Translations under genes and position numbers: made by a program | The notes under the pieces: generated by a model | Told to the model about the DNA's origin: nothing | The model's database searches: none | What the model saw: only the letters and a program-made list of their open reading frames with translations | Assembly: GCF_016595495.1 (NCBI RefSeq) | Contig: NZ_JAENIM010000009.1 | Coordinates: forward strand, 186,001 to 250,000 | Reading direction: 5' to 3' | Origin: Persicirhabdus sediminis | GTDB lineage: Bacteria > Verrucomicrobiota > Verrucomicrobiia > Verrucomicrobiales > Akkermansiaceae | Length of the DNA: 64,000 bases | Part shown: positions 30,663 to 44,540 of the stretch, in pieces | How the letters are laid out: each line of letters opens with the position of its first letter | Numbering within the stretch: position 1 is the first letter of the stretch

Positions 30663-33600
30663 CTAAGCATGAGGCAGCAATTTATCGCCAAATAAAATCA
30701 GTACGCCTAAGAGTACAAATACAATCGACGTCGCTAATTTTACCGTAGCCGTATGCTTATTTTGAAAGTCTATCAGTGCAGAGCTAGTCATACCTCTGAA
30801 AGCTAAAGCAAAGATAACCACCAGCGGTAAAATGAATGCTAGATTATAAATTAGTAGCATCACTACAGCATCTGCCTCGCCCTTCTGAATTTGGAAAATG
30901 ATCGGTGCATAAACTTGTCCAGTACACGCCAGCTCCAATATAGAAATGATCACGCCACTAACAAATGCGGCCAATACAAAATGTCTCGCTTTGGCACGCT
31001 TCCTGATCACACCTCGAATTTTGTCTTTTAGAAATGCAGGAAGCTGTAAGGTCATGTCCTTCAGGTTTCCTTTTGCCGCTCGGCGAGAATCTCTGAAGCT
31101 CAAAATCGCCACCAAGAACGCAAAGGCGGCAAACAAATAGGTCATCGTATGCTTTACCCATTGGAAGCCATCTAGCTGATTTAGTTTATCTATCACCGAG
31201 TGGAAAGCAATGCCCACCGCAAAGTATGACAAAAAGATAGCGCTGATAAATGACGCTCCTACCATCAAAATTTCACGCGGCGATCGACGAGCAACCTGCA
31301 GGTACGAAAGGAAGAAAATAATCGTCGCAAATGCACATGGATTAACGCCATCTAGCAACCCAGCACCTATCACCACTGGCAGAGTCATGTTCGCAAATGA
31401 CTGATCTATCTTCTGCTCAGCTAGCTCAATAGCCTCATCGCCCATGTCGGCCCAGCTGTCATCTAGCGGCATGGCCAAGGTATCAACTACCAGCTTCATG
31501 ATATGCTCAGGCTGAACACTTGGTGAAATAGCCGCACCCGATTGAACAAATAAAGATGGTGTCTTACCTACTCCTGAAACTTGGAAGTAATCACATAATG
31601 CCTGGTTTAATAGCATAGATGATGGTTCCAAAATATTTTTATGCTCAATGACTAACTGAGGGAAATCACCCTTAATCTTATTCAGTTCAGCGTCTAATGT
31701 TTCACACTCACTACAGCCAGGTTTATAGAACACAAGCGCCCTAACGGTCTCCCGCTCAGCTACAGGTTCAGTAATCTCAGGCTCCTCAGAATGCTGTGCT
31801 AGGCTTGAATCCACCTGCATCTTAGCTAGATCCTGAAAGGAAGTGAACGCCAGTTGTTTGCCGCTGCCAGCAAAATGCTTAAGAATGAGAGGACGCTTCC
31901 TTTTATTAATACTGCGCCAATCTACGTAGGCCAGCAATGGTTTGATTCCTGGACCTAATGATTTGTATTGATCCTCAATAAACGATCCCAAACGCCGCGT
32001 TAGAGTTTTATCACCAGCTCGAGTCGACAGAAGCGAAATAAAATCAGCTAGATCAATATCCTGACCATGATAGAGCAAAGTGTACAACGCCTCAAAACGC
32101 ACCCGTTCGTCAGGATCATCATTAGCTAAGCCCTTGATCAACCCAAGTACATGCCCAGATATGCGCGGCTTCTTCCTATTATAGTTCCAGCTAGAATCTG
32201 GCCGCTGGTGTGTGTCTGAGAAATAGACCTGCCACTGACCTCTATCCGACAAAGCAACCAAAAGTGCCTCACGCACCCGCGGAGAAACATCGCTCAGACC
32301 ACGCTCGGCGTTTTCCTCTAACCATGATTGATTAAACCCTGCAACTGTATACCAAGCAGCGCGGCGCAACCACTGGCTCGCATTCTTTGTATATTCTGAT
32401 ACCACCCCAAAGCTAGTATGATCGAGAGCCTGCCTCGATAGAGTTAGAGCTAGCACCTTCTGATCATCCTCAGCTAGATCATTTTTCAACGTCGCTATAC
32501 ACCAGCTATGAATCGCACGTTTTGCATCACGGTCTCTAGCTGAAGATTCCAAATTCCGACAATACAAAGCTGAAGCATGAATCTTACGACCGGGAAGATC
32601 TAGCAAAGAAAGTGCTTCCGAAATCAGCGCCAAGTTTTTTGATTCACTGAATGCTGATTGAGCCGCATCTTCTTGTACTGTCTCAGCATCATCATTGAGT
32701 AATCGCAAAGTAAGTTCAGAACTCTTCTGCGTCGATGTATAACGTAGCGCTGCAGCAACAGCAGACCGTTGGCTGACGGAATAGCCAGCCAGTGATTTTA
32801 GCAATTCTTCCGCACCTCGGTTGTCGCCAGATTTAGCTAGAATGATTCCCGCTCGGAATGCTTGTTCACTTTCACTAGCAGCCACTTTTGCTAACTCATC
32901 ACGCAACGCACTAACATTATCAGGGAGTGATGATGCGGAACTCGATTCAAGCTGCTTCTCGGTCTGCTTTCTCTCACCGACAGCCACTTGGTTAAAGGCA
33001 TCGTACAATGAGTCTAACTTTGTTGAAACTTGACTCTTTTTAAGTTGAACCACTTGTGCCAAATAGGCGCTAGTATCAGTCATTTTAGGTAACCTAAGGT
33101 GATCAATCACCGCTGAAATTCGCTCAAGCTGACCACTCGTTAAGGCTTCCAACAGCGCCGCTGAGACTGCCTCAATCTTCTCCACCTTTTTGCTGTCCTT
33201 TGCTAATATCCTGATAGCTGAACAAGCAATATCCAGATCCTCATGTGAGCTGAAACTTGCCACTAACTTAACATGGCCCTCATCTGAGCTTTTTTCTAAT
33301 TCACTCAAACACGCAATGATAACATCCACAGGTCGAGTCCTTAAGTGCTCGAGCAAACTGTCAGTGAACTGAATATCCAATCCAACAAAAGCACTCGTCG
33401 CCATCGGCACGAGATCGTCATTACTGAGGAACATCTCTTCTAACTGAGATCGTGCTGAGGTCAATTTCAAAGCAACTACAGCTTGTACTGCACCAGAGCG
33501 CACAAACTCATCTTCATCACTAAGCAACTCTAATACCTGCTCTGCAGCTCGTTCAGTACGCACCTTGACTACAAACTCCAATGCAGCAGAACGCACTCGC

Positions 33601-34736
33601 CAGCGCTCATCAGTAAGATAAGGAAGTACTTGATCAATCAATTCATCCGTGACCTGAACTTCGCCCTCTGAATTACTAGAATAAAATGTATTTCGCCCCG
33701 CAACCTCTGCTTTACTCAGCTTCGTTAGGCTTTGTATCGTGGACACTAGCAGATCTTCATCATTTCTAGCTAGATAAGGAACGATTAGATCCACAGCCGC
33801 CTGACCACCGATCTCGCGCAACCTACGCATCGCCACATGTATCACGTTAACGTCAGCTTCCTCTGCGAGTACATCGGCCACCAAAGGCACCGCTTCTGCA
33901 TTGCCTAGCAACAAGGCTGTATCAATCGCTGTTTCTCGCACCAATGCATCGGATGAATTGACAAAATCCAGTACGATAGGAATCACCAGAAATCCATTTG
34001 TTTTGATTTGGCTAAGCGCCTCAAGCACCTGATCCCTATTACCTCTCGTTAGTGAGCGTGCTATACTATCAGCGCCCTGCGCCCTCGTCTGAGTTAAGAC
34101 CAAATAATACTGGGCCTCTTTTAACCTGACCAGCTGGTGTTCTAGCAAATCTGGGCTAGTTACAATAAATTCCTGAATATCACCAACCGCTAGCATCCCA
34201 TATGGCTCTAGCATACGCAGTGCGCGCTTCTGCCTTTCAGCTACAGAAGAAATCAAGTCTCTAATGTAGCTTTGCATTTGATCATCAGTTAGTTGATTGC
34301 TTGCTGATAATTTTTCCCCTTTTGAGCCAGCCCATACCATCCAGCGGCTCAAAGCAGCATGATGCTCATCACTAGCTGGCGTATCCCATGGATCGTAGTC
34401 AAATTGCTTACCGCTGAAATCCTCTAAAATCTCGATGGCTCCAATCCTAACAGCCAGTCTTTCATCCCCTAAATAAGCCACCATTTGGCTTTTGGGAAAT
34501 GGCTCAGCCTGCTTTAAGGCTGCGCGTATTAACTTGCGCTGGTGTTTGTCTCCGTAGTTAACCACCGCTTGCTCCCAGTCACTTGACCTGGCTGGATCAC
34601 TGCTACGGCTAGCAATACGGTCCAAGGCATCCCGGCTAATATCGTCAGCTATGCCCACCGACAACAATGATACATAAATCATTATCAACAGCCGACGAGC
34701 TGAGATGGATAGAAAATTTTTCAGCAACAAGTTCAT
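30663..34736 (-). CDS. HEAT-repeat / thioredoxin-like / CcdA-type membrane fusion protein
   Basis: 1357 residues. A signal or anchor segment (about 12-30) is followed by roughly 900 residues of HEAT-like helical repeats ('A-V-R-I-G-A-I-E-I-L', 'W-R-V-R-S-A-A-L-E-F-V', 'F-V-R-S-G-A-V-Q-A-V'). A thioredoxin-like domain (about 1000-1090) has Cys1008-Ser-Glu-Cys1011 in 'F-Y-K-P-G-C-S-E-C'. The C-terminal part (about 1120-1357) has six or so membrane helices with 'D-G-V-N-P-C1134-A-F' and 'L-E-L-A-C1271-T-G-Q', the paired-cysteine pattern of CcdA/DsbD. This would pass electrons across the membrane to the extracytoplasmic thioredoxin domain. It is last in the MoxR/BatA operon, directly after the candidate selenoprotein, so a shared redox role is inferred. 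Confidence 0.82.
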   Translation of the reverse strand: MNLLLKNFLSISARRLLIMIYVSLLSVGIADDISRDALDRIASRSSDPARSSDWEQAVVNYGDKHQRKLIRAALKQAEPFPKSQMVAYLGDERLAVRIGAIEILEDFSGKQFDYDPWDTPASDEHHAALSRWMVWAGSKGEKLSASNQLTDDQMQSYIRDLISSVAERQKRALRMLEPYGMLAVGDIQEFIVTSPDLLEHQLVRLKEAQYYLVLTQTRAQGADSIARSLTRGNRDQVLEALSQIKTNGFLVIPIVLDFVNSSDALVRETAIDTALLLGNAEAVPLVADVLAEEADVNVIHVAMRRLREIGGQAAVDLIVPYLARNDEDLLVSTIQSLTKLSKAEVAGRNTFYSSNSEGEVQVTDELIDQVLPYLTDERWRVRSAALEFVVKVRTERAAEQVLELLSDEDEFVRSGAVQAVVALKLTSARSQLEEMFLSNDDLVPMATSAFVGLDIQFTDSLLEHLRTRPVDVIIACLSELEKSSDEGHVKLVASFSSHEDLDIACSAIRILAKDSKKVEKIEAVSAALLEALTSGQLERISAVIDHLRLPKMTDTSAYLAQVVQLKKSQVSTKLDSLYDAFNQVAVGERKQTEKQLESSSASSLPDNVSALRDELAKVAASESEQAFRAGIILAKSGDNRGAEELLKSLAGYSVSQRSAVAAALRYTSTQKSSELTLRLLNDDAETVQEDAAQSAFSESKNLALISEALSLLDLPGRKIHASALYCRNLESSARDRDAKRAIHSWCIATLKNDLAEDDQKVLALTLSRQALDHTSFGVVSEYTKNASQWLRRAAWYTVAGFNQSWLEENAERGLSDVSPRVREALLVALSDRGQWQVYFSDTHQRPDSSWNYNRKKPRISGHVLGLIKGLANDDPDERVRFEALYTLLYHGQDIDLADFISLLSTRAGDKTLTRRLGSFIEDQYKSLGPGIKPLLAYVDWRSINKRKRPLILKHFAGSGKQLAFTSFQDLAKMQVDSSLAQHSEEPEITEPVAERETVRALVFYKPGCSECETLDAELNKIKGDFPQLVIEHKNILEPSSMLLNQALCDYFQVSGVGKTPSLFVQSGAAISPSVQPEHIMKLVVDTLAMPLDDSWADMGDEAIELAEQKIDQSFANMTLPVVIGAGLLDGVNPCAFATIIFFLSYLQVARRSPREILMVGASFISAIFLSYFAVGIAFHSVIDKLNQLDGFQWVKHTMTYLFAAFAFLVAILSFRDSRRAAKGNLKDMTLQLPAFLKDKIRGVIRKRAKARHFVLAAFVSGVIISILELACTGQVYAPIIFQIQKGEADAVVMLLIYNLAFILPLVVIFALAFRGMTSSALIDFQNKHTATVKLATSIVFVLLGVLILFGDKLLPHA

Positions 34737-34775: not shown

Positions 34776-35420
34776 TTAGTGAAGTAAGGCGTAGGCGAAT
34801 ATGTTTGCGTTAACTCGAACTGAGTTAGAAATTTCGTTCCCTCCTCAACAACAGCATCCTTCTGTATTGGAGGTATCATTCAAACCGTCGGAGGCGAATA
34901 CCACAACTAGCTTACCATTATGGCTGAGTCCGTGGAGCTTACCCTCTCCCCCCTTTGACAACTTGAGCTGTTTGATCGTGAATATGGTATTAAATAAGGC
35001 GTGATCTTTGGCGATCTCCTGCAGTGAATCATTGCCAAATACTCTTTTGATCTCTCGCTGAAATGAACTTGCCCACGCTTTATTTGAACACCCAGGCGAT
35101 GCTAACATAAACCCACCGTTCTCTAGGTATTTTTTCAAATTCACCCGCTCTTTGTTAGTCAAAACAAAGTCATCTTCACCTGTAAGAATGACAAACGGAA
35201 ACTTAAACAGCTCGTCCGACGATAGCTTCACTGGCTTAAAACGGCGCTCAGTAGCAATGCTCGTATGCTGCTGTACGGTGCTGAGAAACTCATCACTAAA
35301 GCAGCGTGAGGTTTTAGTTCCAGCATAGATAAGGTTACCACACTGCACCGCCCCCTCTTTAGCAGCCAGTGGCGAAGCTAAGCTGAGGATAAATAAACTA
35401 ACTAATTTCAAAGTTTTCAT
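34776..35420 (-). CDS. DUF4159 family protein, candidate selenoprotein (in-frame TGA at codon 192)
   Basis: Signal peptide (about 1-20, ...L-A-S-P-L-A-A-K). The DUF4159 fold is recognisable: 'F-P-F-V-I-L-T-G-E-D-D-F', 'L-K-K-Y-L-E-N-G-G-F-M-L-A-S-P', 'V-V-F-A-S-D-G-L-N-D-T'. After residues 189-191 (Cys-Cys-Cys) comes TGA (34847-34845). The frame then continues 22 codons (G-G-N-E-I-S-N-S-V-R-V-N-A-N-I-F-A-Y-A-L-L-H) to a TAA at 34778-34776. This tail resembles the usual DUF4159 end (x-V-N-x-x-A-Y-A-L). If TGA is read as selenocysteine the product is 214 residues; if read as stop, 191 (34845-35420). It sits between DUF4175 and the thioredoxin/CcdA fusion. A recent nonsense mutation or base error are the alternatives. 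Confidence 0.6.
34811..34827 (-). other. Candidate bacterial SECIS stem-loop after the in-frame TGA
   Basis: On the minus strand, 17 bases after the TGA, TAACTC pairs perfectly with GAGTTA around a five-base loop AGTTC. The loop starts at base 24 after the TGA and has G as its second base. That fits the general bacterial SECIS description I know (apical loop about 16-37 bases downstream, G among the first loop bases, short upper stem). A 6-bp stem can arise by chance. Confidence 0.4.
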
Positions 35421-35443: not shown

Positions 35444-38227
35444 CTAATCATTAACAAAATATCGTTTCACAGCATCTTTATATCGATCTGGAACATTTTC
35501 TGATTCGGGGCCCGCTTGACTTTGCTGGCTTGCTTGCTCTATCTCAATACGGTTAGTTTCTTTCACGCCATCAGTCCCGAGGGCACCTTTCCCTCCAGCA
35601 CCACCATGAGCGGACATGAACTGCTGGGGCGAAAATATAGCGCGATCAGGCCCATACATGGGAATTGAGAGGCTATTGCCCATCACAGAATAACCATCGC
35701 TGCCAGATCCACCACCGCCACCTCCAGCCCCACCGGAGTTGCCATTTCCCTGTCCCCTTTGGCTCTGACACATCAATGCTTCTAGCATTTGCTGCATCGT
35801 CATTGCTACATCTTGAGGTAATGTGAATCGCGGAGCTCTAGATTTGCACATCGAGCAAAAACTATTCTTCTGTTGGAGAAGCTGCTCCATCAAAGACAGT
35901 GCTAGAATGGAGTTCGCCGCAGCATCAATAGACTGTCCCTTTTCGGCAGCTGTTTCAGCTGCCTTCATGGCATTATCAATATCGAGGCGGTCCAAAAGCT
36001 CTATAAATTGCTGCACGTCCGCTGCCATTTGAGCGAATTCATCATCCAAATTGCCCGCATGCTTTAATAGCTCGCGTTTCATTTCAGCTAGAGCCTGACG
36101 ATTCTTTTGCTGCAGACGGCCTAAATTGGCTAGATTACCAGCATTAGTCATCTCGCCCATAGCTATCTCTTTTGCCATCAACTGTGTTCTTTCAGCTAAT
36201 GACTCTTGCGCTTTATATATGCGCATAAATTCTGCCGACTGCTTCATGACCTCCCCAAGCTGTTTTACTTTCTCAGCATCTTGACGAACTTGCGCTACCT
36301 TCTTCTCGATTTTTTTGAATCCTGAGCCTAACTCATCAAGCCCCTTGGACATTTCAGCTGGCGAACTACCTTCTCCAAATTGATTCAACTGCTTCAGTGC
36401 CTCGTCAGCTTGTTTGCCGAGAGCACTGGCAACATCACGTAAACGCTTTTCCATAGCAAAGGCTTCGAAATCATCACCGATCTTGTTAGCCAATTCTTTT
36501 GATTCAGCTAGATGCTTTTTGGCCTGCTCGAGCGCACTCTTAATGCTGTCAGGATCACCTGAGTCTATCGCCTCATGCAACTGACCTATGGCATTCCGAG
36601 CCTGTTTCATAGCGTGAGCTAATGCCTGATAGCGAATGGTAAACTCTTCCAACTGAGTTTTCATTCTAATCCTCTCAGCGTATTCTTCTTCACTGATCAC
36701 CACAACCTTCACAAGATCTGAAACTCCAATTCCCAACTTATTAGGGTGATGATCTTGAGCCTCAAAATAGAACTCTAATGTTTGCTCTGCCTCTACACCT
36801 AACTGAGCTAGGTCTAGCTGGTTTTCATAATGATAACTTTTGCCAAATTGCCCTTCAGCAATCAATTTTCCCCGATCACGGAACCCCAGCAAAGTTCTCT
36901 GTAATTTGACTGACTTGATGCCAAAATCATCTTCCACTCGCAGCTCGAATGGCACCTTAGACTTGGGTGTAGCTAACAAAAGACTCTGTGGTGAATTAAC
37001 ACTAATGGTTGGCACTTCGTCCTTCTTAACATTCAAGCTGATAGCAAAAGGGCTAGCAGCCTTGGTAAAGCGAACGTCATGAATATGGGCCACCAAATCA
37101 GATGACTCCTGAGCAGTCCAAGAAAAACAAACTGAGCTATGACCAACAAGTTCACCACTGACCTCAGTAGTTTGTTCATTGCCGTCAGTATCTTTTGATC
37201 GCACCTCTAATAGCCCCCCACCAAGAGGTCGGTTGCTATGCAAAACTAACTCAACAATAGACCCAGCGGCAGCCCTAATCTCGTTACTATCCAGCGAGAA
37301 CGACTCCATTGCCATGCCCGTGTACTCAGGTGATGAAATTTTGACCGAAGCCGAGGCAACACGAGGCTGAAGCAAAACATCTAGCTGAAACCAATCACTG
37401 CGAGCGCGACCGCAGGTAAATGCAAACTCTACAGGCTGGCGGGTATTCTCAAACTTCTTAGCAAATGACTGAGTTCCTTCACTATAGCAAGCTAGGCTTT
37501 CAGTGCGGCCTTGCTCCCTATCGCGAACCAAACATTGCACCGGTGACTCTAACTCACCACCGACAACACGAACCTGCACCACTGCGTCCTCTCCGTAAAC
37601 CACAGCCAATTGGCTATGATCGATCTCGAAGCGCAAGGGACTATATGGAGGTATATCCGACATCGGCTGGAAAAACCTACACCAGCTAACATCAAACAGC
37701 TCGGATTTCGTCCACTTGATTACATTAATTGATAGCAAACAAACTCCAGAAGCTAACAAACTAATCAGTAGAAAATTCCACGGTGTCCGTTTACTTAAAC
37801 TGATACTGGCTAGGCAATCATTGGCCTTCTGATACAAGCGCGCTTTATGAAACTCAGCCATTGAATCAGAATCGCTACTGCCAGAATCATTCAATGAATA
37901 AGCGCCTGAAATGCTAGCTCGTTTATCATTTGATAAACTATCGGCCAAATGAGAAAGCTTTCCATTACTAAAGCGATAGGCACACCATAATGCAAGGCAT
38001 GCAGCCACGATACAAAAACCAAAGAATGCTAACTTAACCCAGTAACGAGTTTCATTAGTATAGATAAAATAATAATCTAAGGCACATAGAGACAACAGCA
38101 GCACACAACTAACCACCATCAGACAAGAAAGAGCGATGCAACACCGTCCTAGGCACCATGACAATTTGAGCCGTCGCATGGACTGCTGAAATTGGCTACT
38201 TGCACTCATGTTATCTTTATTTTGCAT
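35444..38227 (-). CDS. DUF4175-like membrane protein of the MoxR/Bat operon
   Basis: 927 residues. Two membrane helices near the start (about 28-80), a third at about 155-172, a central extracytoplasmic beta-rich part ('Y-S-P-L-R-F-E-I', 'K-I-S-S-P-E-Y-T-G', 'V-E-D-D-F-G-I-K-S-V'), then a long Gln/Lys/Ala-rich coiled coil (about 530-760) and a Gly-rich segment (about 815-835). This is the DUF4175 organisation (large protein with helical C-terminal domain) common in bacteroidete, planctomycete and verrucomicrobial aerotolerance-type operons. The function is unknown; a role as an envelope scaffold with the BatA-type neighbours is inference. It starts 14 bases after the upstream gene. Confidence 0.7.
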   Translation of the reverse strand: MQNKDNMSASSQFQQSMRRLKLSWCLGRCCIALSCLMVVSCVLLLSLCALDYYFIYTNETRYWVKLAFFGFCIVAACLALWCAYRFSNGKLSHLADSLSNDKRASISGAYSLNDSGSSDSDSMAEFHKARLYQKANDCLASISLSKRTPWNFLLISLLASGVCLLSINVIKWTKSELFDVSWCRFFQPMSDIPPYSPLRFEIDHSQLAVVYGEDAVVQVRVVGGELESPVQCLVRDREQGRTESLACYSEGTQSFAKKFENTRQPVEFAFTCGRARSDWFQLDVLLQPRVASASVKISSPEYTGMAMESFSLDSNEIRAAAGSIVELVLHSNRPLGGGLLEVRSKDTDGNEQTTEVSGELVGHSSVCFSWTAQESSDLVAHIHDVRFTKAASPFAISLNVKKDEVPTISVNSPQSLLLATPKSKVPFELRVEDDFGIKSVKLQRTLLGFRDRGKLIAEGQFGKSYHYENQLDLAQLGVEAEQTLEFYFEAQDHHPNKLGIGVSDLVKVVVISEEEYAERIRMKTQLEEFTIRYQALAHAMKQARNAIGQLHEAIDSGDPDSIKSALEQAKKHLAESKELANKIGDDFEAFAMEKRLRDVASALGKQADEALKQLNQFGEGSSPAEMSKGLDELGSGFKKIEKKVAQVRQDAEKVKQLGEVMKQSAEFMRIYKAQESLAERTQLMAKEIAMGEMTNAGNLANLGRLQQKNRQALAEMKRELLKHAGNLDDEFAQMAADVQQFIELLDRLDIDNAMKAAETAAEKGQSIDAAANSILALSLMEQLLQQKNSFCSMCKSRAPRFTLPQDVAMTMQQMLEALMCQSQRGQGNGNSGGAGGGGGGSGSDGYSVMGNSLSIPMYGPDRAIFSPQQFMSAHGGAGGKGALGTDGVKETNRIEIEQASQQSQAGPESENVPDRYKDAVKRYFVND

Positions 38228-38241
38228 TCTACTATTATTGC

Positions 38242-40458
38242 TTAGCTTAAACCATTTCTGCGTCTAACCCACCACTCGGCTGACAGTAATAAGGCAATCA
38301 ATGTTGCCAGCATCCACTTAGCCCAACTTGGCTGCCAATAAGCAACACCGTCACGGTCTATCTGCTGAATGGCACTCATTTTTTCACTTAACACATCTAG
38401 CCATGAATCATCCTCTAGGACGAGTCCATCAGTCTGCATGGCAAATGTCTCCATAAAATAAGGGTCAGCACTTAGCTCATCCATCTCAGCTGGCGGGGCT
38501 AGAACTAACAAACTAACATCAGGAAGAGAAAGATTATTATCATTACTAGCACGCAGCTCGAAATGATAGTTCCCTGGAACTTCAGGTTCATAACAAGCAA
38601 TCCATTTCAGCTGACCTGTATCGTCGATCTCCTCAGCTGGAACGATCACTAACTCTTGAGAAAGAGCTGCGGAGCGTACGACTACCTCTGGAGCAGCAAC
38701 TTCGCCCTCTCCCCTATATGCAGCACGAATTAATACTGGTTCAGCAGGACGTATTTCATCAGCTGATAGATGCAGCGCGTAATCTTGTCCTGGCAAAAAC
38801 TCAGAATAAGATAACATCCAGTGGATCAGCTGAGTCCAGAACTCTTCATACATATTGCCTAGATCTCTCGCCTCTGGGTAAAAATCCCACTTCCATAGTC
38901 CGTCAGCATTAACCAAGCCACTAACGCCTTGCCCATAGCGCCGAACCATCAGCAAGGGAAATTCATGACTTTGCCCGCCTATGCCGTTAGCTTTACCAGT
39001 GGCTAACACACGTGTAAATGGCTTCACACCTTCTATTCGGTGAGCATCCTTAAGCGAGGGCAAAGAAGACCATAACGCGGAGTCACTGTCAGGTAGAGCA
39101 TCACCAAAAAGTCCAGCTATAGCGCCTTCGTTAGTTGGTTGAAAATGGAAATCTTCACGTAAGCCATCAGCCCAGCGCACTGGCTCTAATACCTCTAGGG
39201 TGGTAAGTTCTCCAGTATATGGTTTTGACCGGGCAAACAAAACGGCTCCACCCAAATCACGCACAAATACTTTTAAAATTTTAATGCGTTCCTCGTTCAG
39301 AAAGTGCTCACAATTTTTTCCGAATACGATGAGGTCGTATTGCATGAGTTTTTCAATCGTATCGGGAAAAACACTCGTTGACGATTCATGAGGGAGTGAT
39401 TCCGAAGAGTCTACCTGAAACCAGCGGTCTGCACTCAAACGATGCACCGAACTAAGCTCCATGTGCGCCTGACGCCTCATCATTTGTGCTAAGAACTTGC
39501 TATCCCAATACGGAGCTCCCTCAGCAATAAATACTCGTGCTTTATCGTTAAGTACTTTGATTCTATATTCCGCTCCATCTCCGTCTATCTTGATATTATC
39601 AGACTGGCTAACAACTTCGAGCTTGAGCTGAGTCGATTCTTCTGGAGCATTAATAGCAAAGCTAACAACTTGTTTCTCATTATTCTGCACCAGCACAGCT
39701 TTTTGCGAAATGACTTCACCTTGAGCATTTTTGAGAGCCAGCTCAATTCGCTGTGACTCCACCTCAGATAACTCAACTACAGCAGCCAAGGTCAATGCTT
39801 GGCCAGGGAATGCAGTCAATGACTTGCGTGGAGTAGAGACTCTTATGCCAGAGAAGATCTTCTCTCCTCCAATGGTGAGTGTATGAAATGGCACCTGCAT
39901 AGACTTCGCCCGCAGGCTAACTTGTTCAGACTTTCCGCTAGAGGTTTGACGTCCATCACTTAATACAACAACTCCAGCTGGGTTCACTCCTTGGCTAGCT
40001 AGCTGCGATAGCAAGCGGTCAGAGCTCGTTGCTATATCGCTAGATTGTCCATCAAATTGGTAACTGTCGCCATCTGATAGTTCAACGAGCTCATCCGCAA
40101 ACTGGAATCTTCTCACAGTAACTCCTGACTCTTTTGCTAGATCTTGAATTTGACCATCTATCAACAGAGCCCTATCAGATCGAGATTCACCATCATCTAG
40201 AGCAGTCATGGATTCAGAGCCATCAAGCATGACGATCCATGGTTTCTCATCATTACTCGTATCAGACTTCCAGTCACCTGGATTAAACAACAACAGTAAA
40301 ATCAAGAATACAGCGGCTAACCTTAGCAGACTAACGACATAGCGAAGTTTACGCTTCAGCGTAGAACAAGACTGCCAAGTGATGATGAGACTTAAAGCTC
40401 CTAGCAATACGCTAATGATGATCACTACTGGCCAGGAAAATACCGGATTAAAATTCAT
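38242..40458 (-). CDS. Membrane vWA-like / glutamine-amidotransferase-like protein
   Basis: 738 residues. Two N-terminal helices (about 8-28 and 38-60) precede a von Willebrand A-type region with a MIDAS-like 'V-M-L-D-G-S-E-S-M' and 'G-V-V-V-L-S-D-G-R-Q-T-S-S-G'. A Ig-like stretch follows, then a class I amidotransferase-like domain ('A-R-V-F-I-A-E-G-A-P-Y-W-D-S-K-F', 'Y-D-L-I-V-F-G-K-N'), and a C-terminal helix (about 708-728). It overlaps the BatA-type gene by four bases. A strong Shine-Dalgarno inside the end of that gene sets the start. Confidence 0.75.
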   Translation of the reverse strand: MNFNPVFSWPVVIIISVLLGALSLIITWQSCSTLKRKLRYVVSLLRLAAVFLILLLLFNPGDWKSDTSNDEKPWIVMLDGSESMTALDDGESRSDRALLIDGQIQDLAKESGVTVRRFQFADELVELSDGDSYQFDGQSSDIATSSDRLLSQLASQGVNPAGVVVLSDGRQTSSGKSEQVSLRAKSMQVPFHTLTIGGEKIFSGIRVSTPRKSLTAFPGQALTLAAVVELSEVESQRIELALKNAQGEVISQKAVLVQNNEKQVVSFAINAPEESTQLKLEVVSQSDNIKIDGDGAEYRIKVLNDKARVFIAEGAPYWDSKFLAQMMRRQAHMELSSVHRLSADRWFQVDSSESLPHESSTSVFPDTIEKLMQYDLIVFGKNCEHFLNEERIKILKVFVRDLGGAVLFARSKPYTGELTTLEVLEPVRWADGLREDFHFQPTNEGAIAGLFGDALPDSDSALWSSLPSLKDAHRIEGVKPFTRVLATGKANGIGGQSHEFPLLMVRRYGQGVSGLVNADGLWKWDFYPEARDLGNMYEEFWTQLIHWMLSYSEFLPGQDYALHLSADEIRPAEPVLIRAAYRGEGEVAAPEVVVRSAALSQELVIVPAEEIDDTGQLKWIACYEPEVPGNYHFELRASNDNNLSLPDVSLLVLAPPAEMDELSADPYFMETFAMQTDGLVLEDDSWLDVLSEKMSAIQQIDRDGVAYWQPSWAKWMLATLIALLLSAEWWVRRRNGLS

Positions 40459-42587
40459 CGCATTACCTCCTTTTTCATACCACGTGGCCGGTACATCGCT
40501 AATAAGTTTTCTATCATAAGCAACAATAGGCAGATTAAGATGAGGTATGGCCAGAGCTCCACGCCATCACCTAACGAAGCCATACGCATAAGCTCATCAA
40601 CATGTAATCTCTCACCAACAGTGAGAAGCTCAGCATCCATTAATTTCAAATTAGATTCTGAGTATGGAAAATTGATGACCTGAGTATCAACAGTCTCACT
40701 ACCTGAGACCCAGAAATAAACCCCAACAGCTTGTGTATCTTTACTCTGCATCAAGACGCCTTGCTCGCTCATTTTCTGAGCTATAGGAACTGACTCACTA
40801 CCATCCTTCTTTAAGGTGACTGATGACGCCTCGACGCGTTCATCTAACTTATAGCTTAAATAACTACCAGCTGGATACTGGCTTAACTCTAGCTTGCTAG
40901 CACTCTGGTGATGTTTCAGGAATTCTCCAACAAAAGTAACGATACTTGATGACTCCGCCCAGCTAGAACTCTCTAAGCCCACCATGACTCCCCAGAGTAC
41001 AACTGGCGCACCATGTGCAGAGGAGCTCAACATTGCGGCTTTGCCATCCGAGTATTCTAATAAGTGATTTACATCTTCACCTAAGTCAGCCGGTAGCGAG
41101 ATTCTTTGATAGACATTACCTGAAACAGCAGAACCAAAATCTCCACTCTCATAGAGTGCAAATAGCCCAGCGTCCTGGCTAGCTAATCTAGCTGACGCTG
41201 TAACTGTCCAGAACTGCGATGCATCAGCCGTCCTACTAGACTCACTTCCTAACATAGACCTAGGCTTCCCTTGTAATAAAGTCCTGCCTGCTAGATCAGC
41301 AGGTTTATCCGCACTCATGATAGCCTGTAAATGTGCAGCAGGAACCCCGCCAGCTGGCATTACCACCAAACTTGTGCCCTCCTGAGCCCATTGTTTAATC
41401 AGTTCACTATCAGAGCCATTCCACTGATTAACAAAAATGTAATCGTAAGTGGTGGCGGCAGAAAAATTAGTTAGTGAATCAAGTTCTACAAAATCGCACT
41501 CCACCCAGTCGAAGCAATTAAACAAGCGCTGCCAAACATCGAGCTCGTTAGGCACAACCGTCTCTCCATTAACTCTCTGCTCAGCTGCGTGTATAAAAGC
41601 GACTCGCATACTCTGCCTAACTGGCACAACAATAGAGCATTGGTTATCCGCTGGATAGGCATCTTCAGCTAGACTCAGAGTTATGAGAACTTTTTCAGCT
41701 GACTGGAAACTGCTACGGAACCTGATTTCGGCCTCGCCCCAGGCTGGCAGTTCGACCATCTGAGAGCGGCGATTACCGCCCATATCGGCAAACACTGATG
41801 TACGTCGAGGAGAGCTAGAATAATTATGGACCTTTGCTACTACAGCTAACTCCTGTCCAACCATAGGGTTCGCTACCGAGGTATAAACGTTACTGATGGC
41901 TAAATTAGCTACTTCTCCAGAACCAATTTGAACCTTCTTCAGTTCTATTCCAGCCGGCAAATTTATATCCAAGTTAGAGTAAGCAGATTCTTGAAAGTCA
42001 GAAAGTAATACAATCTCTTTGCGATGCGTCGAGCCTTCAAGCTGTCTAATGGCCAACTCAACAGCTGAGCCAATCGCGCCATTCTCATAAGCGACATCCG
42101 CTCGCAATACACTTTCTTCCAGATAAGTTAGATTCTTCCCTAGCTGAGGGAACACGCTTTGAGCCTGCGCCTGAATCCACACCACATTTGCTAGATCAGG
42201 GGCATCAGCTTGGAGTAATTCAGCTACTCGCTGACAAGCCTGCTGGAAGCGAGTCGAGGATCCCTGCTCAGCTGCCATAGAGGCACTACGGTCTATCAAA
42301 TATACACGGCTCACCCGATCAGCAACAACACCTTCGTCCTTCATGCTGATCATCGGCAAAAGAAATGCTGATAGAAGTGCTAGTAGAGCTAGCGTTCTCA
42401 GAAACCACAAAATCCAATCTTGTGGTTTCTTGAAGCGGGCGGTTTTTTTGAGGATTTTCTGTAAAAAATCGACATTAGAAAATGCATATTGGGGTGGTCG
42501 ATTCCTAGCAAACATGTGCACTAGGAGAGGCAATACCCCAAGCAGCAATATGCCAAATAATGCAGAATTTATGAAAAAGAGATGCAT
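40455..42587 (-). CDS. BatA-type protein (aerotolerance regulator N-terminal domain)
   Basis: 710 residues. The opening 'F-F-I-N-S-A-L-F-G-I-L-L-L-G-V-L-P-L-L-V-H-M-F' with 'F-S-N-V-D-F-L' and a second helix ('L-W-F-L-R-T-L-A-L-L-A-L') is the BatA N-terminal domain. A vWA region follows ('R-V-Y-L-I-D-R-S-A-S-M', 'I-V-L-L-S-D-F-Q-E-S-A'). The long periplasmic part ends in a last helix (about 683-700). It begins two bases after the DUF58 stop. The family name comes from Bacteroides aerotolerance, but the molecular role is unsettled. Confidence 0.8.
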   Translation of the reverse strand: MHLFFINSALFGILLLGVLPLLVHMFARNRPPQYAFSNVDFLQKILKKTARFKKPQDWILWFLRTLALLALLSAFLLPMISMKDEGVVADRVSRVYLIDRSASMAAEQGSSTRFQQACQRVAELLQADAPDLANVVWIQAQAQSVFPQLGKNLTYLEESVLRADVAYENGAIGSAVELAIRQLEGSTHRKEIVLLSDFQESAYSNLDINLPAGIELKKVQIGSGEVANLAISNVYTSVANPMVGQELAVVAKVHNYSSSPRRTSVFADMGGNRRSQMVELPAWGEAEIRFRSSFQSAEKVLITLSLAEDAYPADNQCSIVVPVRQSMRVAFIHAAEQRVNGETVVPNELDVWQRLFNCFDWVECDFVELDSLTNFSAATTYDYIFVNQWNGSDSELIKQWAQEGTSLVVMPAGGVPAAHLQAIMSADKPADLAGRTLLQGKPRSMLGSESSRTADASQFWTVTASARLASQDAGLFALYESGDFGSAVSGNVYQRISLPADLGEDVNHLLEYSDGKAAMLSSSAHGAPVVLWGVMVGLESSSWAESSSIVTFVGEFLKHHQSASKLELSQYPAGSYLSYKLDERVEASSVTLKKDGSESVPIAQKMSEQGVLMQSKDTQAVGVYFWVSGSETVDTQVINFPYSESNLKLMDAELLTVGERLHVDELMRMASLGDGVELWPYLILICLLLLMIENLLAMYRPRGMKKEVMR
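40466..40472 (-). promoter_or_regulatory. Shine-Dalgarno of the vWA-like gene
   Basis: AAGGAGG, seven bases before the ATG at 40458, formed by the last codons of the overlapping BatA-type gene. It fixes the start. It also shows that the organism uses Shine-Dalgarno sites although many other starts here lack one. Confidence 0.7.
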
Positions 42588-42589
42588 AT

Positions 42590-43468
42590 CTATGCCAGTC
42601 TATCAAAGAGGTTGAACCAATTGTCAGTTGTTTTCACCAATGCGTAATCTACCTTCCGCCTAGCAGATAGACGGCGTAACTTCTGCACATGCTCATGCAT
42701 CTCATCCCGCCAGAGATCTCTTAACTGATCAGTATGCACAACAAGGTGCTCAGCTGATTCAAGATCATTAAAACGAGCCAAGCCAAGCTTAGGGAGCGTG
42801 AGTTCAGCGGGATCTAGCACATGGAATAAATGCACACGAAACCCGCGGTGCAAATACGGATTTAATGCTTTGAAAATAGCTTCTGGTTCGTCGAAAAAAT
42901 CGGACAAAATAACTAATGTCCCCTTGCGTTTGATCAATGGCGCTGATCTTTCTAGAGCTGTAGCTAGAGATGTACGCTCTCCAGGTTTGTTATTTTCTAA
43001 CGCCGTTAAAAGCTGATGTAGATGCGACCTCGTCGATCCGGCATCAAGAAACAGCCTGATCTGTTCATCAAAGAGCTGCAGCGATACTTTATCATTTTTT
43101 GAAATCACTAACCAAGCTAGGCAAGCAGCAAAAAACGACGCGTATTCCAGCTTAGTGATATCCCCCTCTTCACAATAGCCCATAGAAGCTGAGCTATCGA
43201 CAAACAGGTGGCATTCCATGTTAGTTTCTTGCTCAAAGGTCTTAAGGTAATGTCTATCACTACGGGCAAATACTCGCCAGTCCACCAGCGCAGGGTCATC
43301 ACCTTGGACATACTGTCGGTATTCGTGAAACTCGATAGAAGCGCCCCGTTCTTTAGACCGGTGACGACCAGACAAATACCCTTCAACAAGGGCTTTCACT
43401 CCGAACTCGTAATGCTTGAGTTGGCGAATGTCCTCGGGGCGTATGTATTTGTATCTAGTCGCAGCCAC
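42590..43468 (-). CDS. DUF58 family protein
   Basis: 292 residues, no membrane segment. 'F-H-E-Y-R-Q-Y-V-Q-G-D-D-P-A-L-V-D-W-R-V-F-A-R' is the DUF58 signature, followed by a vWA-like 'L-F-V-D-S-S-A-S-M-G-Y' and 'V-I-L-S-D-F-F-D-E'. DUF58 proteins are almost always next to a MoxR ATPase, which is thought to act as a chaperone for vWA partners. It starts four bases after the moxR stop. Confidence 0.9.
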   Translation of the reverse strand: MAATRYKYIRPEDIRQLKHYEFGVKALVEGYLSGRHRSKERGASIEFHEYRQYVQGDDPALVDWRVFARSDRHYLKTFEQETNMECHLFVDSSASMGYCEEGDITKLEYASFFAACLAWLVISKNDKVSLQLFDEQIRLFLDAGSTRSHLHQLLTALENNKPGERTSLATALERSAPLIKRKGTLVILSDFFDEPEAIFKALNPYLHRGFRVHLFHVLDPAELTLPKLGLARFNDLESAEHLVVHTDQLRDLWRDEMHEHVQKLRRLSARRKVDYALVKTTDNWFNLFDRLA

Positions 43469-43472
43469 GTTT

Positions 43473-44459
43473 TTAGTTCTGATTTAACAGCTTTTCAATG
43501 ATCGTCTCGACTAAGATTCCCTCACCACTTGCATTATAGTTAGGAATAATACGGTGCCTCAATACTGGTAAAGCCACTGCTTTAACTTCATCAATAGAAG
43601 CTGCACTCTCACCTCGCAACAAAGCCAGAGCTCTAGCAGCTCTAGCTAGACACTGTGATGCACGGGGGCCTGCTCCATATTCCACATACTGGTTCACAAA
43701 CTCGTTAGCACCTGCTGTATGCGGACGAGACCCATGTACTGTTTGAAGAATATATTTCACCACACTATCAGGCAGCTGGATATCCAGAGTGGCGTCTTGT
43801 AGCTTATTCACACCGTCGGCATCTAATATAGCTTCAGCCTCATCACAGTGGTGGCCAGTCGTACGGCGAATGATTTCTTCTTCATCAGCCATTGATGGGT
43901 AATCAATTTTGATATTGTAGAAGAATCTATCGAGCTGCGCTTCAGGCAAAGGATACGTTCCTTCATGCTCGATTGGGTTCTGCGTGGCAAAAACAATAAA
44001 TGGTTCTGATAGTTGACGAGTCTTACCAGCTACGGTCACCTGCTTCTCTTGCATCGCTTCTAGCAGCGCGGCCTGAGTTTTTGGTGGGGTACGGTTAATT
44101 TCATCAGCTAGAATGAGGTTAGCAAATATTGGTCCCGGTACGTACTCGAAGTTACGAGCCCCATCACTGGATGTTTGTAAAATTTCAGACCCAACAATAT
44201 CTGTTGGCATCAAATCTGGAGTGAACTGGATACGTTGAAACTTTAGCCCCAGTACTTTACCGAGGGTAGAAACTAACAATGTTTTAGCCAATCCAGGCAC
44301 CCCAGTAAGTAGGCAATGCCCACGGCACAGTAAAGAAACCATTAGTTCTTCGACGACATCATTCTGGCCGACAATCACTCGGCCAGTCTGCTGGCGGATT
44401 TTTTTTACAGAATCTTGGATCTCGCTCCACTGCTCTTCAGCTCTAATATCTTCACTCAT
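43473..44459 (-). CDS. MoxR-family AAA+ ATPase
   Basis: I use the ATG at 44459 (328 residues); the longer frame opens with GTG. Walker A 'G-V-P-G-L-A-K-T', Walker B 'L-I-L-A-D-E-I-N-R', sensor 1 'F-A-T-Q-N-P-I-E' and the MoxR-typical 'G-T-Y-P-L-P-E-A-Q-L-D-R-F' are all present. MoxR proteins are ATP-driven chaperones that mature or assemble vWA proteins, here probably the DUF58, BatA and vWA products downstream. It follows the unknown 956-residue gene. Confidence 0.93.
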   Translation of the reverse strand: MSEDIRAEEQWSEIQDSVKKIRQQTGRVIVGQNDVVEELMVSLLCRGHCLLTGVPGLAKTLLVSTLGKVLGLKFQRIQFTPDLMPTDIVGSEILQTSSDGARNFEYVPGPIFANLILADEINRTPPKTQAALLEAMQEKQVTVAGKTRQLSEPFIVFATQNPIEHEGTYPLPEAQLDRFFYNIKIDYPSMADEEEIIRRTTGHHCDEAEAILDADGVNKLQDATLDIQLPDSVVKYILQTVHGSRPHTAGANEFVNQYVEYGAGPRASQCLARAARALALLRGESAASIDEVKAVALPVLRHRIIPNYNASGEGILVETIIEKLLNQN

Positions 44460-44540
44460 CACTCTATCAAATTTCACACTTCTACTAACACTAACTAATA
44501 GATATTGGCAGCAAAAACTTCACTATTCTAATCAAGCGTC

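Follow-up and report, generated by a model that had tools for sequence, protein, structure and literature searches.

Reading frame and C-terminal tail

Does the TGA that interrupts a DUF4159 gene of Persicirhabdus sediminis end the protein, or does it encode selenocysteine (Sec)? The gene lies on the minus strand of the window, the whole 64-kb stretch of DNA analyzed here. Its open reading frame, 35420..34845, begins with ATG at 35420 and encodes 191 amino acids ending in ...GCCC. The codons GGA TGC TGT TGT directly precede a TGA at 34847-34845, which is codon 192, and the frame then continues for 22 codons, GGNEISNSVRVNANIFAYALLH, to a TAA at 34778-34776. A first-pass annotation of this DNA had described this arrangement and suggested Sec, and every element of the description is present in the sequence. 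The features of the gene are as follows.

34779..35420, minus strand: predicted selenoprotein gene, encoding a probably exported DUF4159 protein of 214 residues with Sec at codon 192 in the motif GCCCUGG (frame, profile, homologues)
34845..34847, minus strand: in-frame TGA, read here as selenocysteine (TGA in 12 genomes; of 65 close matches in the order, the 54 without TGA have Cys)
34779..34844, minus strand: 22-codon C-terminal tail after the TGA, conserved at the protein level (profile, alignment, dN/dS)
34776..34778, minus strand: TAA, the true gene end (sequence)
35361..35420, minus strand: likely signal peptide of 20 residues, MKTLKLVSLFILSLASPLAA (judged by eye)

A search of this genome with the PF13709 (DUF4159) profile returns one match, which covers profile positions 21-202 of 202 and contains a single TGA. 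Translation with U for the TGA gives a 214-residue protein, Sec being residue 192, that scores 94.8 bits against a PF13709 cut-off of 25.9 (Pfam), in agreement with the earlier assignment to DUF4159. The earlier view that the tail is the normal end of the family likewise holds, as the profile match spans the TGA and the tail is under purifying selection. Among the 11 TGA genes used for this comparison, changes in the 22 tail codons are mostly silent, with a ratio of median dN to median dS of 0.13 (41 pairs; throughout, only pairs with a defined dS). Without the seven codons that carry the stem, this ratio is 0.06 (36 pairs); for the 50 codons before the TGA, it is 0.085 (12 pairs). Judged by these substitution patterns, the tail is protein under purifying selection.

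These data bear on the reading in which UGA genuinely terminates translation, leaving ...GCCC as the C-terminus and the tail as a relic. This is what the standard code prescribes, and UGA still serves as a stop elsewhere: the BatA gene of the same operon ends in an ordinary TGA. In another genome, G542, its own copy of the DUF4159 gene terminates at TGA. However, the tail is conserved (0.13, as above) and aligns with Cys homologues, and the TGA is retained in 12 genomes, which leaves a real stop very little chance.

Codon 192 in homologous genes

Among 58 relatives, seven genomes, this one included, carry the same gene with one in-frame TGA. The translations read CCC*GG[ND]E in all seven TGA genes and CCCCGG in nine similar genes. 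A sample of the order comprised 386 genomes, 60 of which have a close homologue (E 1e-50), with 65 matches in total. Codon 192 could be read in all 65: 11 have CCC*GG and 54 have CCCC (one of these ends with its contig after CCCCG), no other state occurs, and the motif is always CCC[C/U]G. Together with G001, the 11 genomes of the order sample make 12 TGA genomes, which span seven genera in two families, six genera of the family of P. sediminis and one of another.

In a scan of named genome contigs that yielded 98 relatives, the 80 retained comprise 5 with TGA and 75 with CCCC; CCCCGG was one of the two patterns used, so this sample favors Cys. The five TGA loci coincide with genomes among the 12 and are counted once. 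Distinct genes matching TGY-TGY-TGY-TGH-GG number 102, with TGA in 12, TGC in 71 and TGT in 19. Because this count takes only genes that match the pattern, all 65 matches of the order were read without that demand. CCC[C/U]GG is invariant in an alignment of 15 rows, which omits G033, and in one of 73 rows, which uses 72 of the 80 named loci. The subfamily occurs in Verrucomicrobiota, Lentisphaerota, Planctomycetota and a few other phyla, and viral contigs scanned for the TGA motif gave 0 matches. One further DUF4159 gene with an in-frame TGA (L223, G126:C233:11158-11655; 'TGHFH*FLSP') has no known Cys counterpart and was judged an error or a pseudogene.

The first-pass annotation had expected that homologues carry Cys at this site, and they do: 54 of 54 non-TGA matches in the order and 75 of 75 non-TGA named loci. 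It had also named two patterns that would speak against Sec. Neither was found: no homologue ends at the triple Cys, all non-TGA genes reading CCCC, and no residue other than Cys occupies the site among the 65 matches or the 80 named loci. An error of sequencing or assembly that turned TGC or TGT into TGA might be considered, as the window comes from an assembly of 47 contigs. Recurrence of the TGA in 12 genomes makes a sequencing error very unlikely; the same base stands there amid diverged flanking codons, and we place the probability of an error close to nil.

Selenocysteine machinery

A search for selA, selB, selC and selD had been proposed as a check, and all four are present in this genome. 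SelB scores 264 bits (cut-off 242; 637-643 aa), SelA 504 bits (cut-off 268), SelD 370 bits (cut-off 125), and tRNA-Sec, with anticodon TCA, 51.8 bits (gathering score 47). The selD gene (L210, C29:4423-5346) is itself a selenoprotein gene, with a TGA in SCGG-U-ASK and a stem-loop behind it. This motif fits the UxxK motif given for the SelD selenoprotein in Table 1 of a recent inventory (PMC13188914), and the gene serves as a positive control. Full-length selD with one TGA was found in 11 of the 13 genomes searched.

Conservation of the TGA in several genomes, another point on which the proposal was to be judged, extends to 12 genomes, and SelB is present in every one. SelA is found in 11 of them, tRNA-Sec in 11 and SelD above its cut-off in 11, with all four in 10 of the 12. 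The two genomes with gaps are incomplete assemblies: selA and tRNA-Sec were not found in G639 (86% complete), and G672 (77% complete) has no selD above the cut-off. In G001, selD is split and partial. SelB was called by the curated cut-off of TIGR00475; at E 1e-3, the model matches 58 of 58 genomes. Gathering scores and ARAGORN were combined for tRNA-Sec. ARAGORN names 9 of the 11 tRNAs, and the loop TTCAA was read by eye in G019 and G579. At E 1e-3, the Rfam tRNA-Sec model matches 57 of 58 genomes and also 14 of 14 controls, and that tally was therefore set aside; as 5 of the 14 controls pass the Rfam gathering score, the score alone is no proof of tRNA-Sec. SelB occurs in 12 of 12 TGA genomes versus 10 of 49 Cys-only genomes (Fisher 3.7e-7, relatedness ignored), and in this sample a TGA at codon 192 is found only in SelB genomes.

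This distribution bears on a reading without selenium, in which a suppressor or near-cognate tRNA inserts Cys, Trp or Arg at the UGA. A tRNA-Cys(UCA) is known elsewhere, and Cys occupies the site in homologues, as such a reading would have it. Against this stand the restriction of the TGA to SelB genomes in this sample, the UCA tRNA that was found, which is of the tRNA-Sec type, and a SECIS-like stem that accompanies the TGA genes. We give suppression only a slight chance.

A SECIS-like stem-loop behind the TGA

The stem-loop that accompanies the Sec reading lies within the tail:

34812..34826, minus strand: SECIS-like stem-loop of 6+3+6 columns, with A.C as its top pair in this genome (pairing, covariation, folding)

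The six-column stem, AACTCA/GTT/CGAGTT, begins 18 nt after the TGA. The first-pass annotation had reported a 6-bp stem with a G-containing loop at SECIS distance, and this stem is found at 34826-34812, with the qualification that the top pair is A.C here. As a consequence, the fold of this gene is AACUC-AGUUC-GAGUU plus one outer U-A pair. In an alignment of the 12 TGA genes, the loop is GUY and the stem has six pairs in 10 genes and five in 2. Standard pairs fill 70 of 72 cells (97.2%), and 7 cells are changed on both sides. Changes on both sides are seen at pair 22-36 (G-C 7, A-U 4, other 1) and pair 24-34 (C-G 9, U-A 3). None of 500 shuffles reaches the observed covariation score, paired share or number of double-change cells; 296 of 500 shuffles at least match the observed count of pairs showing a double change (2), and all 500 that of further pair types (4). 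Sliding the partner strand lowers pairing to 0-56%. Synonymous re-encoding of the genes gives a mean of 3.99 pairs versus 5.83 of 6 observed, and 0 of 5000 re-encodings are as high.

The Cys genes differ from the TGA genes in this region. Among 90 distinct Cys genes, none has six pairs and two have five, one of those two being the revertant G642 described below. Mean folding energies are -7.5 for TGA genes versus -3.3 for TGC and -4.4 for TGT genes (Mann-Whitney 6e-7, relatedness ignored). The residues encoded by the stem region are Ser-Val-Arg-Val/Ile in TGA genes and mostly Ser/Ala-Met/Leu-Glu/Gln in Cys genes.

The bacterial SECIS consensus, as given in the legend to Figure 2 of PMC13188914, has a loop of 3-9 nt with G in one of the first two positions, a stem of 4-16 bp, a distance of 16-37 nt from the UGA and a minimum free energy of -7.5 kcal/mol or lower. 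With a loop of AGUUC or GUY, a stem of 5-10 bp and a distance of 23-24 nt, the elements found here fit that legend in these three respects. The best fold over lengths of 40-61 is -8.9 or lower in 12 of 12 TGA genes, and 11 of these 12 folds contain the stem. Over 58 nt of the P. sediminis gene, the SECIS-like fold reaches -7.9 kcal/mol, and an alternative fold is slightly better at -8.9; the SECIS-like stem of this gene ranks with the weakest in the set of twelve. Six TGA genes were also folded over just the 28 nt of the stem region, which gave values from -5.2 to -9.9. RNAalifold adds a lower helix of 8 pairs, possibly part of the SECIS; three of these pairs are each disrupted in between 2 and 4 of the 12 sequences, and a fourth in 1. 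An Rfam scan of the whole 64-kb window gave no match.

From these sequence data, we conclude, with a probability of about 0.94, that the gene at 35420..34776 (minus strand) is a selenoprotein gene in which UGA is recoded as Sec at codon 192.

Evolutionary history of the Sec codon

A tree of 97 rows was built with codon 192 masked, from 11 TGA genes (G639 was omitted, as its gene starts too near a contig end) and 86 Cys genes. All 11 TGA rows fall in one group of 12 (SH-aLRT 90) in this tree, the product of a quick search that leaves 39 of 94 inner branches open. The twelfth row is G642, which has TGC and shares its genus with four TGA genomes. Codon 192 changes 2 times on the tree versus a shuffled mean of 10.6, a count that does not tell gain from loss, from shuffles that ignore relatedness, with the Sec genes forming one clade. 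G642 (L205) retains a remnant stem, AACTCGGTCCGAGTC, with five of the six pairs, and its genome has SelB, SelA, SelD and tRNA-Sec. Read most simply, the sequences suggest that the family had Cys, that Sec was gained once in Verrucomicrobiales and that it was lost again at least once. For G642, the simplest reading is a recent return from Sec to Cys; a revertant with a decaying SECIS would be a clean case of such a return.

Protein fold and cysteine center

An AlphaFold2 model built from the 73-row alignment has a pLDDT of 87.6, with lower values (66, 79) around the motif. The closest solved structure is Hoch_4089 (PDB 4i66; Foldseek 2.1e-13; VIA-align Z 20.5, rmsd 2.9 over 184 residues), which also gives a profile match (E 5e-17). 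The next matches, with Z near 8-9, are class I glutamine amidotransferases, IFT52 and ThuA-like proteins. The model points to a class I glutamine-amidotransferase-like fold. C40, C111 and C189-C192 are invariant in the 73 rows, and C27 is nearly so. By strand order, the CCCU loop would replace the catalytic His-Glu pair and C111 the nucleophile. The N-terminus resembles a signal peptide by eye, and the protein is probably exported.

The model also bears on a selenium switch, in which 214 residues are made with selenium and a 191-residue form ending in CCC, with a role of its own, is made without it. Decoding of UGA generally depends on the selenium supply, as such a switch would need. However, the short form would lack conserved residues and the final helix of the model, both of which lie in the tail, and so would probably be unstable; we assign the switch a small probability.

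Operon and neighboring genes

The DUF4159 gene lies in an operon ordered MoxR ATPase, DUF58, BatA/VWA, VWA2-like, DUF4175-like, selenoprotein and HEAT-Trx-CcdA. The neighbors are as follows.

43473..44477, minus strand: MoxR-type AAA ATPase
42590..43468, minus strand: DUF58/VWA protein
40455..42587, minus strand: protein with a BatA N-terminal domain and VWA; ordinary TGA end
38242..40458, minus strand: protein that we take to be VWA-like/GATase-like (VWA2-like); no Pfam match
35444..38227, minus strand: upstream gene; large, presumably DUF4175-like protein; no Pfam match above the cut-off
30663..34736, minus strand: next gene downstream; HEAT repeats, thioredoxin-like domain (CSEC) and DsbD/CcdA-like membrane part; putative electron donor

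Every named locus whose flank is long enough has the DUF4175-like gene upstream, 51 of 51 in clade A and 19 of 19 in clade B. Its product has a CxxC (SFCSMCK) in this genome and in some relatives, with none listed for G009, G012 and G025. The HEAT-Trx-CcdA gene is directly downstream in 43 of the 54 clade-A loci with at least 500 nt of flank, five TGA loci included. It is absent from the other 11 (7 of the Akkermansia type) and from 20 of 20 clade-B loci, and these absences count against reading it as a redox partner.

The first-pass annotation had called the downstream gene a thioredoxin/CcdA membrane protein. It does encode a CSEC-bearing thioredoxin-like domain as well as a helical part in which two Cys are invariant, and its motifs suggest a DsbD/CcdA-type donor. 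The CxxC and the two further Cys (C26, C29, C152, C289) are invariant in 24 rows (the alignment takes 23 of 34). Residues 13-107 have a thioredoxin fold (VIA Z about 10-11; Foldseek E only 0.03). For the membrane part, the fold-search matches listed include no DsbD or CcdA chains, only the thioredoxin part, and all Foldseek matches have E above 0.001. The helices of this part come from the model, and they would lie in the membrane.

Clade B comprises 21 named loci, as set in this analysis, and appears in the tree as one starred group of 26 rows. Pattern searches find a downstream ORF that combines a CGC-type motif with three or more CxxCH in 17 of 18 clade-B loci with enough flank, and a thioredoxin-like ORF as well in 9 of the 18. 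Three of these downstream ORFs were scanned with Pfam and are cytochrome c554; one (L146), scanned with NCBIfam, is UshA-like, with 225.2 bits against NF041198 (UshA-like (seleno)protein), under the cut-off of 275, and is a relative rather than a member. At L123, L136, L139, L146 and other clade-B loci, a UshA-like protein fused to a multihaem cytochrome c554-like part follows the Cys4 gene, and a thioredoxin is often next. The clade-B Cys4 DUF4159 protein may work with this UshA-like/cytochrome c554 protein.

Proposed function

In the mechanism that we propose, the stem-loop located 18 nt after the UGA would direct SelB and Sec-tRNA(UCA) to insert Sec at codon 192, giving a product of 214 residues ending GCCCU-GGNEI...LLH. 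The Cys3-Sec loop of the exported protein, with the invariant C40 and C111, would form a redox-active or nucleophilic center. The thioredoxin- and DsbD-like neighbor would hold this center in the reduced state by passing electrons across the membrane, and the center would act within a membrane complex of the MoxR-DUF58-BatA-VWA operon.

The main support for a redox role is the frequent presence of redox-type genes behind the Cys4/Sec gene, seen in clade A as well as in clade B. Counting against a redox function, Leptospira biflexa with all bat genes deleted has no oxidative-stress defect, as reported in the available part of PMC3557215. On the neighbors, we regard a redox role as about an even chance. 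More specifically, and only tentatively, the protein could be a selenoenzyme of a new kind, in which a former glutamine-amidotransferase-type site has been rebuilt as a Cys3-Sec (+ Cys40, Cys111) center, driven by thioredoxin and DsbD across the membrane inside the MoxR/Bat machine. The job of the operon would then be a periplasmic thiol/selenol reaction.

Alternatively, CCCU/CCCC with C40 and C111 could bind, detoxify or deliver a soft metal or an Fe-S cluster, the Trx-DsbD partner only keeping the site reduced. Four adjacent thiols and two more invariant Cys would suit such a site. Sec more commonly takes the place of a Cys at redox centers, and no metal-protein neighbor was recognized among the genes read; both points argue against it. 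Other CU-motif selenoproteins in Table 1 of PMC13188914 include metal- and mercury-linked ones, in favor of this reading. We consider metal binding a reasonable though doubtful candidate.

Relation to known systems

DUF4159 was not found in a search of the open-access literature (subscription papers and protein databases lay outside its scope). It is not in Table 1 of the May 2026 inventory of 119 families and subfamilies (PMC13188914), not among the nine new families listed for deep-Sep (PMC12013277) and was not found in the accessible part of a 2022 review. The literature search did not find a 'Cys-Cys-Cys-Sec' motif. In NCBIfam release 20.0, no model matches the window protein, and 15 family members give only two single matches, at E 0.002-0.003, to unrelated families. 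Because DUF4159 is missing from the inventory, deep-Sep, the literature and NCBIfam, we call it a new selenoprotein family, as far as these searches reach.

Such a family would add to the bacterial selenoproteome. Standard annotation is likely to cut the protein short, with loss of the last helix. Sec would also single out residue 192, and with it the Cys4 loop, as a site of chemical activity in a subfamily of uncharacterized function, and it would give a poorly understood type of MoxR/Bat operon a concrete, testable chemistry.

The locus resembles the bacterial selenoproteins with Sec/Cys pairs covered in the inventory (PMC13188914) in having an in-frame UGA with a SECIS-like element of bacterial type just behind it, homologues with Cys, the Sec machinery and redox-type neighbors. 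It differs from them in its CCCU motif and GATase-like fold, most characterized ones being thioredoxin-like according to the accessible part of the review. A selenoprotein related to the CTP synthase C-terminus (NF004836), described in the deep-Sep report (PMC12013277), is also of the glutamine-amidotransferase type with Sec. Its motif, as given there, is GxUxG, probably a nucleophile elbow, whereas the Sec of the window protein would lie in the C-terminal CCCU loop of another family. The solved DUF4159 (PF13709) member Hoch_4089 (4i66) has the same fold as the window protein, but the alignment shows neither CCCC nor a Cys at the C111 position. The UshA-like (seleno)protein NF041198, a known Sec/Cys family, is a different protein from DUF4159; in clade B, the gene that directly follows the DUF4159 gene encodes a Cys relative of it joined to a cytochrome c554 domain, and the clade-B copies displayed read Cys.

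Bat function is described as unsettled in the part of PMC3557215 available to us. Bat/MoxR-VWA operons have consecutive genes for a MoxR-type ATPase, a DUF58 protein and BatA/VWA, as here, and the window operon adds DUF4175-like, Cys4/Sec DUF4159 and HEAT-Trx-CcdA genes to this set. The DsbD/ScsB/CcdA conduits share with the last of these a thioredoxin-like CxxC domain and two invariant Cys in a helical part; the neighbor differs in its HEAT-repeat front, and the fold search lists only its thioredoxin part.
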